NCBI GenBank assembly: GCA_016234445.1
Contig: JACRBT010000004.1
Location: 310,001 to 374,000 of the forward strand
Reading direction: 5' to 3'
DNA from: Chloroflexota bacterium
GTDB taxonomy: Bacteria > Chloroflexota > Dehalococcoidia > Tepidiformales > Tepidiformaceae
Length of the DNA: 64,000 bases
Shown: piece after piece, positions 11,164-13,910 of the stretch
Numbering within the stretch: position 1 is the first letter of the stretch
Layout: every line of letters begins with the position of its first letter
Position numbers and translations under genes: made by a program
Notes under the pieces: model-generated
The model's database searches: none
Told to the model about the DNA's origin: nothing
Seen by the model: the letters and a program-made list of their open reading frames with translations, nothing else

Positions 11164-13344
11164 TTACTGGTCGGTGGCCCCGAGGGTGCGCAGGTAGTTC
11201 ACGAGGTGCCACATCTGCTCCTCGGTCAGCTTGTCCGGCCCGCTGCCCCAGGCGCGCATGGCCGTGGCCGCCACCCCGTCGTTGATGAACACGAAGAGTT
11301 GTCCGTCCGGGTGCTGGGGCACGTGCACCGTGAGGTCGAGGGGGTAGGGTTTCAGGTCGAGCCCCTTCGGCGGCACCCCCGTGGCGCCGTGGCAGGCGAC
11401 GCAGTTCTGGGTGTAGAGCTGACGGCCGGTGGAGATTGAGTCCTGGTCCGGGAAAACCGGGTTCTTGCGGAGGCCCGGCAGGGGCTGGTCCCGGTGAGTC
11501 CCGAAGACGAGGAAGAAACCGGCCGCAAACCCCGCCACCGCCAGCGACTGGTTCGCCCGGCCGATGCGGCGCCAGCGCCGGGAAACCTGGCCACGCCAGA
11601 GGAACATCCCCAGCGCCACAAAGAGCAGGAACATGCCCGTGAACTCGTTCGCGGTCATCCCCGCCGCCGGGTTCCCCCAGCGCCCGCCGCGGTTGACGTA
11701 CTGGACGGGCGGCCCGGCCGGGCGGACGTCGTAGAAGGCCTTGATGTCGTCGGCCCCCGTGCGCCGTACCTCGACCTCGATCCGCCAGCGGCCCTCTTGC
11801 GTCAGGAAGGCGCCCTGGCCAACGAATTGTCCCGCCTCTTCCGCCGGGGCCAGGGCAAGCGTCGCCGGTCCCACCGCCTGGTCCTCCTGGTACCGGAACA
11901 CGAGCTTCACGCTGTCGGCGCCGGGTTCGCCCGCGGCCGGGGTCACGGTCACCCGGTAGGTGTTGAGGCCGGTCCGGTTCGGGTCCACCTGGAGCCGGAT
12001 TCCCAGCGTGTCCGCCTGCACCGTGTGGTCGTACGGCGGCGCCTCCCGCACGTCCGGCACAGACTTGGCGACGCCGGTCTGGGTGAGCATGGCGGCGAAC
12101 ACGAACACGACCAGCCCGAGGAACGCCTCGCCGGAGACCGTCGCGATGAACCGCCGGTGTTCGCTCGCCGGGTTCGCAAGGAACCGGCGGCGGCCGCGGG
12201 TGGCGTTGTAGAGCCCCAGCGCAAGCAAGGGGACCATGAACACGACTTTGCGGAAGATCGTCAGCCCGTAGCGGGTGTCGAACAGCTCCGACGGGTTGGA
12301 GACCTCCACGAAGGCGTTGAAGATGCCCGTGCCTATCAGTGCGAACACACAAACCGAGGCCAGGAGCGAAAACCGCGGCATGACCCGGGCATAGGCGGCA
12401 TCCCGTCCGGCCGATCGGCTGGCGACCGCGAGCCCGAGGACGGCGCCCACCCAGGCAATCGCCGCCAGCCCGTGGCCGAAGTCGATCGCGCCGGCCCAGC
12501 GGCTCCCGGCCCCGGCAGCGGCGTGGCTGGTCGCTGAATAGGCGACGAGGTAGGCAGCGGCGGCGGCGAGCGAGAGGGCGGCCGCGCCCCGGCCCGCGGA
12601 AAGCCGCGCATCGACGATGACCAGGATGAACACCACCGCCGACATCCGGCTGAGCCAGTACAACCCCGAACGCGTCTCGAAGAGCAGCGACTGGAGGCTC
12701 GTCCCTGCGAAGGCATCGCTCAGCAGCTGCAGGTTGAGCAGCGTCGCCGCGCCAAGAACAACCGCGCCGGAGAGGAGGGTCCGGACGAGCACCCGTTCCG
12801 TCGCGGCGGGCACGCCCGGCCAGAGCAGGAGGATCACGCTCGCGCCCCCCACCATGGCGAGCCCGAGCAGCGACAGGAACCGCACGGCCACACCTTCGGC
12901 CAGCGGCGGCGGGTCGGGATCTGAGCCCACGCCGCCGAGCGCGTTCTCGCCCGCGGGCAGGGACCCGTCGGCGTTCAGGACCGTGAACGGGAACGAGCCC
13001 CGGTAGGCGTGCCCGTCGACCTTGGAGACGTTGCTCCAGAGCACGTTGTAGAAGCCGGGCTGGAGTACCGGCAGGTCGACCGCGACGGTCGTGTCGCGGT
13101 TTGAGGCGGCGAGGGGACCCAGCGACAGCGGGCGGCCCGACCCATCCAGGAGGGCAACGCTGGTCGACGACAGCTGCACCGGTTCCGTGAAGTCGAGCTG
13201 GATCTGTCCCGGCGCGCGGCGGAGGAACTCGTTCGAAGCCGGGACGGAGCGGGCAAGGGCGGCATGGGCGGAAGCGTCGGGGCCGGGCCTGGCGGCAAAC
13301 AGCGCCGCCGCGACCACGAGCAGGAAGAGCAGCGCGGCTTTCAC
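11164..13344 (-). CDS. CopC-CopD-cytochrome c fusion, copper-handling membrane protein
   Basis: 726-residue fusion. After a signal peptide comes a CopC-like domain (AHAALARSVPASNEF to FPFTVLNADGS, about residues 27-130), whose first mature residue would be a copper-binding His. A CopD-type membrane domain follows (about 150-430) with eight or so helices and conserved histidines (SATSHAAAG, IDFGHGLAAIAWVG). Then come a beta-rich domain, further helices at about 570-620, and a C-terminal class I cytochrome c domain with CVACH at 648-652 and a likely Met ligand in ATAMRAWG. It overlaps the upstream CopC gene by 4 nt. Roles in copper import, periplasmic copper storage or delivery to cytochrome oxidase are possible; the heme domain implies a redox step. 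Confidence 0.85.
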   Translation of the reverse strand: MKAALLFLLVVAAALFAARPGPDASAHAALARSVPASNEFLRRAPGQIQLDFTEPVQLSSTSVALLDGSGRPLSLGPLAASNRDTTVAVDLPVLQPGFYNVLWSNVSKVDGHAYRGSFPFTVLNADGSLPAGENALGGVGSDPDPPPLAEGVAVRFLSLLGLAMVGGASVILLLWPGVPAATERVLVRTLLSGAVVLGAATLLNLQLLSDAFAGTSLQSLLFETRSGLYWLSRMSAVVFILVIVDARLSAGRGAAALSLAAAAAYLVAYSATSHAAAGAGSRWAGAIDFGHGLAAIAWVGAVLGLAVASRSAGRDAAYARVMPRFSLLASVCVFALIGTGIFNAFVEVSNPSELFDTRYGLTIFRKVVFMVPLLALGLYNATRGRRRFLANPASEHRRFIATVSGEAFLGLVVFVFAAMLTQTGVAKSVPDVREAPPYDHTVQADTLGIRLQVDPNRTGLNTYRVTVTPAAGEPGADSVKLVFRYQEDQAVGPATLALAPAEEAGQFVGQGAFLTQEGRWRIEVEVRRTGADDIKAFYDVRPAGPPVQYVNRGGRWGNPAAGMTANEFTGMFLLFVALGMFLWRGQVSRRWRRIGRANQSLAVAGFAAGFFLVFGTHRDQPLPGLRKNPVFPDQDSISTGRQLYTQNCVACHGATGVPPKGLDLKPYPLDLTVHVPQHPDGQLFVFINDGVAATAMRAWGSGPDKLTEEQMWHLVNYLRTLGATDQ

Positions 13345-13910
13345 GCCCGCCGCGGCCCGAGGAGGTACATCGCCCCGGCGCCGGCGACCAGCGCGGCAAG
13401 ACCAACCGCGGTGACGAGCACCCAGGAGGTCCCTCCGCCGCCCTCGGCGAAGTCCGCCAGCCCCGGAGCCGGGGTTGGCGTTTCGCCCAGGACTGACGCC
13501 TTGAGCACCTCCTTGCCGGGCGAAGGGATGGCGTTCGGGTCGATCCGGAACGTCGTCTGCCCGGTGGCGCCGTCGCCGTCTTCGGCACTCAACGTCTTCC
13601 AGCGGACCGTGTAGTCACCGGCGGGCAGGCTCGTGGGCAGGTTGACGGAGAGCAGGCGGCGGTTGGTGTCGCTTATCACGGCCGCCTCCGTGGTGACCTC
13701 GACGCCCTTCGCGTCCACCACGTCGATGTCGTTGGCCCCCTGCTGACGGGCGAGCTCCTGGGTCATCGTCATCATGATCGAGCGGGGGGCGGCGGCAAGG
13801 ACGGCGCCGTCACCCGGGAACACCGTCGCCGGTTCGGCGTGGGCGAAGACCGCGGTGACCACCACGAGGGCAGCGATGGCGGCGGGAGCGGCGAAAAACA
13901 AGCGGCGCAT
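13341..13910 (-). CDS. CopC-domain protein with C-terminal membrane anchor
   Basis: 189-residue exported protein. The signal peptide runs through AIAALVVVTAVFA, giving a mature N-terminus HAEPATVFPGDGAVL, the CopC pattern in which the first His binds copper. The domain continues to GDYTVRWKTLSAEDGDGATGQTTF. A Pro/Gly linker and a C-terminal helix (SWVLVTAVGLAALVAGAGAMYLL) anchor it. It is first in a two-gene unit with the CopC-CopD-cytochrome fusion (ATGA overlap). TACACT lies 7 nt before the ATG and no ribosome-binding site is seen, so the transcript may be leaderless. Confidence 0.82.
   Translation of the reverse strand: MRRLFFAAPAAIAALVVVTAVFAHAEPATVFPGDGAVLAAAPRSIMMTMTQELARQQGANDIDVVDAKGVEVTTEAAVISDTNRRLLSVNLPTSLPAGDYTVRWKTLSAEDGDGATGQTTFRIDPNAIPSPGKEVLKASVLGETPTPAPGLADFAEGGGGTSWVLVTAVGLAALVAGAGAMYLLGPRRA

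Follow-up and report, generated by a model that had tools for sequence, protein, structure and literature searches.

The window analysed here, a stretch of 64,000 nucleotides from a Chloroflexota bacterium of the family Tepidiformaceae, class Dehalococcoidia (GCA_016234445.1, contig JACRBT010000004.1, positions 310,001 to 374,000), encodes on its minus strand a single protein in which a CopC domain, a CopD membrane domain, a YtkA/FixH-like beta domain and a class I cytochrome c domain follow one another in one chain. An earlier note on this DNA had described the 726-residue product, and coordinates, strand and length prove exact, but it counted three parts and an extra beta domain; that domain is present, and because it is YtkA/FixH-like, as judged from the Pfam matches of relatives, the fusion is four-part rather than three-part. 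The recurrence of the arrangement across the phylum suggests that copper uptake is tied to electron transfer, and we read the protein as a copper acquisition protein of the YcnJ type to which an electron donor is tethered, a reading to which we give a probability of roughly 45%. In window coordinates, the fusion is laid out as follows:

11164-13344, minus strand: CopC-CopD-YtkA/FixH-cytochrome c fusion gene, one open frame of 726 aa with a GTG start
13267-13344, minus strand: signal peptide, residues 1-26, read by eye, ending in ASA before His27
12979-13266, minus strand: CopC domain, residues 27-122 (Pfam 3.2e-18), with the Cu(II)-site residues His27, Asp110 and His112
12079-12900, minus strand: CopD membrane domain, residues 149-422, with eight predicted long helices and the invariant His274 and His291
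11710-12039, minus strand: YtkA/FixH-like beta domain, residues 436-545, from a weak Pfam match, the Pfam matches of relatives and structure matches
11500-11652, minus strand: two predicted helices, residues 565-615, likely membrane-spanning, from the secondary structure of the model
11167-11472, minus strand: class I cytochrome c domain, residues 625-726, from Pfam and a solved-structure match
11389-11403, minus strand: heme attachment motif CVACH, residues 648-652, CxxCH in 20 of 20 aligned sequences
11305-11325, minus strand: H-x3-H-x-D motif, residues 674-680, with H674 opposite His83 of T. paradoxus CytC552
11257-11259, minus strand: Met696, probable distal heme ligand, invariant in 20 of 20

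Three of the four domains are recognised by Pfam above the curated cut-offs, namely CopC at residues 27-122 (E 3.2e-18), CopD at 319-420 (1.3e-18) and PF13442 at 637-718 (1.9e-10), which confirms the CopC-like, CopD-type and CVACH cytochrome c parts named in the earlier note. The beta domain reaches E 0.03 with YtkA, below the Pfam cut-off; in alignment A1 (17 sequences, window included) it matches FixH in 11 sequences and YtkA in 5 at E 0.01, and two relatives of the fusion (L121 and L122) have YtkA above the cut-off. Scores with the NCBIfam equivalog models lie below their cut-offs: 80.2 bits for the fusion with copper_CopD NF033808 (cut-off 195), and, with copper_CopC NF033814 (cut-off 95), 50.9 bits for the fusion and 49.8 for the second CopC described below. 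An AlphaFold2 model based on 59 sequences (mean predicted local distance difference test score, pLDDT, 85.2; predicted template modelling score, pTM, 0.63) presents in order a beta-rich CopC, eight long helices, the beta domain, two helices and a helical cytochrome domain. Structure comparison of these domains, given here as VIA-align second-look matches, places CopC on solved CopC structures, including the YcnJ CopC 9c14 (Z 16-17, root-mean-square deviation (rmsd) 1.1-1.8 A, 95-100 residues), the beta domain on the copper determinant CrdA (Z 12.6, rmsd 2.2, 102 residues) and on copper-reconstituted FetP (Z 10.9, rmsd 3.4, 106 residues), and the cytochrome domain on CytC552 (Z 15.2, rmsd 2.8, 106 residues). 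The CopD domain (model residues 139-425) also matches subunit I of cytochrome bd (9r2g_A; Z 16.2, rmsd 4.0 A, 262 residues), possibly reflecting a shared fold or else a mere helical bundle, helical models often reaching about Z 14.

The C-terminal domain thus has the CxxCH, the distal Met and the fold of a class I cytochrome c, and the N-terminal half has what characterizes the YcnJ type, a CopC with an N-terminal His and a D-x-H site, and a CopD with conserved histidines. Cleavage of the signal peptide before His27 would leave the N-terminal His exposed and, together with the ten helices of the model, would place CopC, the beta domain and the cytochrome all on the outer face, the site of heme c attachment, where CVACH would receive its heme in vivo. 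The frame is open and all ligands are present, ruling out a pseudogene in the window; a chance or assembly join as the source of the fusion is ruled out by its recurrence in many genomes.

The ligands of both metals are kept. Twenty-four proteins from loci found by BLAST were aligned, the broken copy L056, and L057 with it, being left out; three lacking CxxCH (L050, L055, L058) and one fragment (L053) were set aside, and the remaining 20 sequences comprise 17 of the same family, the window's own included, and 3 from other families of the class. Asp110 and His112 of CopC, His274 and His291 of CopD, the heme residues Cys648, Cys651, His652 and Met696, as well as His674, His678 and Asp680, are invariant in all 20, and His27 is present in all 19 sequences that reach it; one of the 20 (L051) has an extra residue between the two cytochrome histidines. 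Both CopD histidines stand opposite His in an alignment with E. coli YebZ, and residues 149-425 hold 5 Met, none of them invariant. The same twelve positions agree in 57 of 58 further full-length sequences, a set that was selected for the motif. Of all parts of the fusion, the cytochrome shows the highest conservation, with a mean pairwise identity in A1 of 0.63, compared to 0.50 for CopC, 0.50 for the beta domain, 0.44 for CopD and 0.43 for the helices.

The earlier note had proposed a search for the same domain architecture, and this search was productive. A match of one kind or another is present in 44 of 61 related genomes, the window's genome counted. The same family accounts for 37 genomes: 16 have the full chain in one frame, the window's genome and 15 others at 47-53% identity; elsewhere it is cut by contig ends (2), frame-broken (1) or devoid of CxxCH (G023), and the remaining 17 show no full-length match. 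Of 400 Chloroflexota genomes, 221 match the family model at 1e-20 and at least 64 carry the full chain (one match from position 25 or earlier to 715 or later), with at least 2 more that start late. A single-protein query of genome contigs confirmed no relatives, whereas an alignment query did. Split genes, which the earlier note would have taken as refutation if met in close relatives, come down to one clear case: in L122, a Herpetosiphonaceae metagenome-assembled genome (MAG), a CopC-CopD-YtkA gene is directly followed downstream by a YtkA-cytochrome gene. The fusion is also interrupted in the complete genome of Tepidiforma flava (L084:7854-10104) and in one MAG (L121:716-3204), but these are frame breaks, due either to real decay or to sequencing error; L121 in particular is no split gene, as its second frame continues the first.

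Other arrangements, found like that of L122 with motif-containing patterns, join CopD to a cytochrome. L124, a Bacillota MAG, has CopD, a just sub-threshold YtkA and a cytochrome, and CopD-cytochrome chains are found in L131, L132, L133, L135 and L136 (MAG contigs of Rhodospirillales, Acetobacteraceae and Acidobacteria), with a CopC gene adjoining in L135 and L136; L134 is cut by the contig end, leaving the cytochrome alone visible. As to a viral or plasmid origin, one single-protein-query scan of viral contigs, which finds close relatives only, confirmed no relative, and no plasmid record covers 80% of the fusion query; we therefore set this origin aside.

Beyond its heme ligands, the cytochrome carries two further histidines in an H-x3-H-x-D motif that appears to go with CopD. 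PF13442 matches in 60 genomes of the class gave 30 loci, the best match per genome for 30 genomes, of which 8 lie in CopD fusions and 22 elsewhere. The motif is present in 7 of the 8 fusion cytochromes, the eighth having one more residue between the histidines, versus 1 of the 22 others, and the count was the same when recomputed at match coordinates as in a rougher first pass. Only these 30 loci and the 20 BLAST-found sequences give motif counts free of pattern selection; the pattern search used peptide patterns containing H...H.DG, so that the 58 out of 58 among its loci says nothing on the motif. The 30 top matches of the phylum all have two histidines 3-5 residues apart, then x-D/E (23 fit H-x3/4-H-x-D and the other 7, by eye, H-x3-5-H-x-D/E), with a search model that itself includes the motif. 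Seven plasmid cytochromes, chosen by hand from 46 records similar to the cytochrome domain, contain the motif once, and the two FTR1 iron-permease fusions among them lack it. On inspection of these two FTR1 fusions we dropped the view that the two additional histidines signal fusion to metal permeases in general. Cytochrome c fused to an FTR1-family iron permease (L211:2740-4602, L212:2623-4533) nevertheless parallels the present protein, as another metal permease that carries its own cytochrome.

The nearest solved cytochrome is CytC552 of Thioalkalivibrio paradoxus, with PDB entries 7o9u and 9vr0 (E values 4.8e-14 and 7.4e-14 for the two). Counting along the printed alignment, its His83 falls opposite His674 of the fusion, and the Arg95 of the CytC552 paper is in step too. 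CytC552 accepts electrons in vitro from a copper enzyme, thiocyanate dehydrogenase (TcDH), and His83 was modelled as the electron entry point from the copper centre toward a heme propionate (PMC9456337). The TcDH gene cluster is flanked by copCD (PMC5328954). H-x3-H-x-D could serve as a sequence mark for finding separate cytochrome partners of CopD.

A second CopC-like gene lies immediately upstream, as the earlier note had correctly seen:

13341-13910, minus strand: second CopC, 189 aa, with a hydrophobic C-terminal anchor (Pfam CopC 2.7e-14) and the copper-site His replaced by Asp (DGD)
13341-13344, minus strand: 4-bp overlap, GTGA, of the second CopC and fusion genes, read from the sequence

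The overlap likely reflects translational coupling, and the frames overlap in all 14 same-family loci holding a second CopC, some starts being over-extended. In relatives of the second CopC the N-terminal His is kept and D-G-H is D-G-D in 32 of 32 genes from 31 loci, all of which adjoin the fusion or sit about 1 kb upstream; neither form is seen in the separate CopC genes of L112 and L122. This protein, still a CopC domain by Pfam, lacks the two-His Cu(II) site and is a distinct paralogue with an altered copper site, not a plain duplicate. A single-His site would be left, similar to that of YcnI, a membrane-anchored Cu(II) protein with a one-histidine site that is the partner of YcnJ (PMC12362106). 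DUF1775, the family of YcnI, has no match in this genome, and by analogy the second CopC may be its equivalent.

How could such a chain work? We tentatively consider a more specific version of the reading, doubtful as yet, in which the protein is a self-contained cupric reductase-permease: Cu(II) would be captured, reduced by the protein's own heme c through a conserved histidine relay and passed as Cu(I) to its own permease, the single-His CopC acting as a feeder in place of YcnI. On the main reading, that of a YcnJ-type protein with a tethered donor, Cu(II) would be bound outside the membrane by the histidine brace of CopC (His27, Asp110, His112), with the membrane-anchored second CopC as accessory Cu(II) carrier, as YcnI is for YcnJ. 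The cytochrome domain on the outer side, reduced by the respiratory chain, would send an electron through a patch formed by H674 and H678 beside the heme edge to copper lying where CopC and CopD meet. The chemistry of CopC and YcnJ is established knowledge, and the affinity of CopC is far higher for Cu(II) than for Cu(I), which is why reduction would make the Cu(II) site let go. The released Cu(I) may then move to His274 and His291 of CopD and inward, or via the YtkA-like domain to the CuA site of an oxidase. Reductive release to CopD is favoured because of this preference of CopC and because a co-crystal of T. paradoxus CopC with flavocytochrome c, by the proximity of the heme, prompted the proposal that Cu(I) is released after reduction (PMC7529816). 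Also in favour of this reading are the other arrangements that join CopD to such a cytochrome, the high conservation of the cytochrome domain, and the presence in the genome of genes for Sco, for a heme-copper oxidase whose subunit II is of the CuA type and for a cytochrome c assembly protein (PF01578). In B. subtilis, support of the menaquinol oxidase by YcnJ depends on the copper-site residues of both CopC and CopD, and the YtkA domain contributes to the assembly of CuA; according to this 2026 study, YcnJ has no known associated reductase, and it is unknown whether reduction is enzymatic (PMC13344008).

Several observations weigh against the main reading. The Cu(II) of Pseudomonas fluorescens CopC is reported not to be reduced by ascorbate, only by dithiothreitol (PMC7529816), so that a cytochrome of ordinary potential would struggle, unless CopD pulls off Cu(I). 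The earlier suggestion of copper handling coupled to electron transfer has support at the sequence level, since the ligands of Cu(II) and of heme and the CopD histidines are retained in a single chain throughout the lineage, and since other CopD-cytochrome arrangements exist; Cu(II) reduction at the membrane, its second half, can be put forward only conditionally. In CytC552 the electron flow is the opposite, from Cu to heme (PMC9456337). L112 has Gln at positions 27, 112 and 291 yet retains the heme ligands and H-x3-H-x-D, which also weakens the notion of H674/H678 as a copper site tied to the CopC and CopD ligands. At least 60 of the 400 Chloroflexota genomes have only matches that end before position 620, with no cytochrome in the match; the cytochrome, common in the phylum, is for this reason optional and dispensable to the protein type. 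As to the other refutation foreseen by the earlier note, homologues lacking heme, a chain without CxxCH was found in 1 of 37 genomes of the family (G023), and chains whose match ends before the cytochrome are common in the phylum. Furthermore, the domain arrangement in the AlphaFold2 model is uncertain (pTM 0.63), the COX1 gene of the genome lies on a different contig from the fusion, and the non-Chloroflexota cases are single MAG contigs found with motif-containing patterns, whose labels may err. For its own part, the L112 protein (L112:3448-5733, Thermomicrobiales) is perhaps a relative that gave up copper.

An unlikely explanation, but the best of those that compete with the reading above, is that the fusion is an oxidase-assembly module, in which the cytochrome docks on a CuA subunit or a Sco partner and directs the loading of copper by the adjacent YtkA/CtaK-like domain, or gives it reducing power, CopC and CopD supplying the metal. 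In B. subtilis, YtkA/CtaK domains do assist the assembly of CuA (PMC13344008), genes for Sco and for a CuA-type subunit II are present in the genome, and L122 has a YtkA-cytochrome protein of its own. The separate contig of COX1 counts against this explanation as well, and no oxidase gene was found among the 9 neighbour families scanned, a partial look at the 60 common to relatives. Moreover, the CopD-cytochrome fusions in which Pfam finds no YtkA (L131, L132, L133, L135, L136) would be left unexplained.

Improbable to our eyes is a generic heme add-on, an ordinary respiratory electron carrier or tether fused by domain shuffling, with no electron exchange with copper. PF13442/PF00034 was found at only two places in the genome, the fusion and the bc complex, so that the domain could serve the respiratory chain between complexes; addition of cytochrome domains to nitrite reductases is reported for Chloroflexi (PMC8756737), and both the FTR1 fusions and the heme ligands of L112, retained without copper ligands, are as expected from such shuffling. 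But several different arrangements join a cytochrome to CopD, and the distribution of H-x3-H-x-D, in 7 of 8 fusion cytochromes versus 1 of 22 others of the class and 1 of 7 plasmid relatives, is not what an indifferent partner should display. Least probable of all is the reverse direction, in which Cu(I) would be oxidised to Cu(II) outside the membrane and the electron passed via heme c to an oxidase, for protection or for Cu(II) loading of CopC: CytC552 does take electrons from a copper centre (PMC9456337) and CopC does hold Cu(II) very tightly and resist reduction (PMC7529816), but the architecture otherwise fits an importer made under copper starvation, YcnJ (PMC12362106), and the absence of any invariant Met among the 5 of residues 149-425 leaves no conserved Met to suggest a Cu(I) site.

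Other genes near the fusion, or related to its parts, deserve mention. In the four Dehalococcoidia loci that were read (L076, L080, L088, L118), a lipoprotein-like gene lies between the second CopC and the fusion; the one of the four that was scanned (L076:6913-7923) starts like a lipoprotein gene and contains beta-propeller repeats. In some Chloroflexota, a His/Met-rich protein without Pfam match is encoded just upstream of the fusion (L099:2033-3595 and L109:6464-7681), possibly copper-binding, and relatives of the L099 protein are grouped with it in 26 loci at a median distance of about 100 bp. On contig C10 of the own genome, the bc-complex cluster (cytochrome b, Rieske) includes an odd electron-transfer fusion of 628 aa (L171:8404-10290, minus strand) with a cytochrome c (CRTCH), five LysM stretches and a cupredoxin-like C-terminus (E 0.0013, below the cut-off).

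Since CopC-CopD and CopC-CopD-YtkA fusions are known already, the added cytochrome is what is new here. None of the titles and abstract openings listed by our searches of open-licence PMC papers describes the fusion, which could well have been published already or be recorded in domain databases. Import by CopC and CopD is thought to start from Cu(II), and the cell handles Cu(I); an importer fused to a c-type cytochrome, with the ligands of copper and heme both kept, is a natural clue to the reduction step, and one that can be tested with one purified protein. If it proves true, a cupric reductase-permease would supply the reductase that the YcnJ/CopD import model lacks, retained by many lineages of Chloroflexota, and the same reductase principle would be met again in the CopD-cytochrome fusions of other phyla.

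Finally, the fusion can be set beside known systems. Bacillus subtilis YcnJ (CopC-CopD-YtkA), proposed to import Cu(II) in support of heme-copper oxidases, shares with it the order of the first three domains, the histidine-brace residues of CopC and the conserved histidines of CopD, and in both cases a membrane-anchored copper-site protein is encoded next door. YcnJ, however, has no cytochrome, and where its neighbour YcnI is a DUF1775 protein, here an Asp-for-His CopC stands instead. CtiP of Corynebacterium glutamicum (CopD-CtaG) also fuses a CopD-like region to a partner needed for cytochrome oxidase, but this partner is CtaG and no heme domain is present (PMC9145763).

On the heme side, CytC552 of T. 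paradoxus has the CxxCH, the H-x3-H-x-D and the distal Met of the fusion cytochrome, but is a free periplasmic protein with His-rich tails that accepts electrons from thiocyanate dehydrogenase (PMC9456337). The T. paradoxus CopC-flavocytochrome c complex (5n1t) likewise puts CopC beside a c-type heme with a proposed reductive release of Cu(I), whereas it is non-covalent, involves a sulfide dehydrogenase and has no CopD (PMC7529816). The FTR1 fusions L211 and L212 combine a metal permease and a cytochrome c in one chain, the permease being for iron and the cytochrome without H-x3-H-x-D. The CopD-cytochrome fusions L131, L132, L133, L135 and L136 unite CopD with a cytochrome of this kind in a single chain, and differ from the Tepidiformaceae protein in that the chain has no CopC and no YtkA was found in it.

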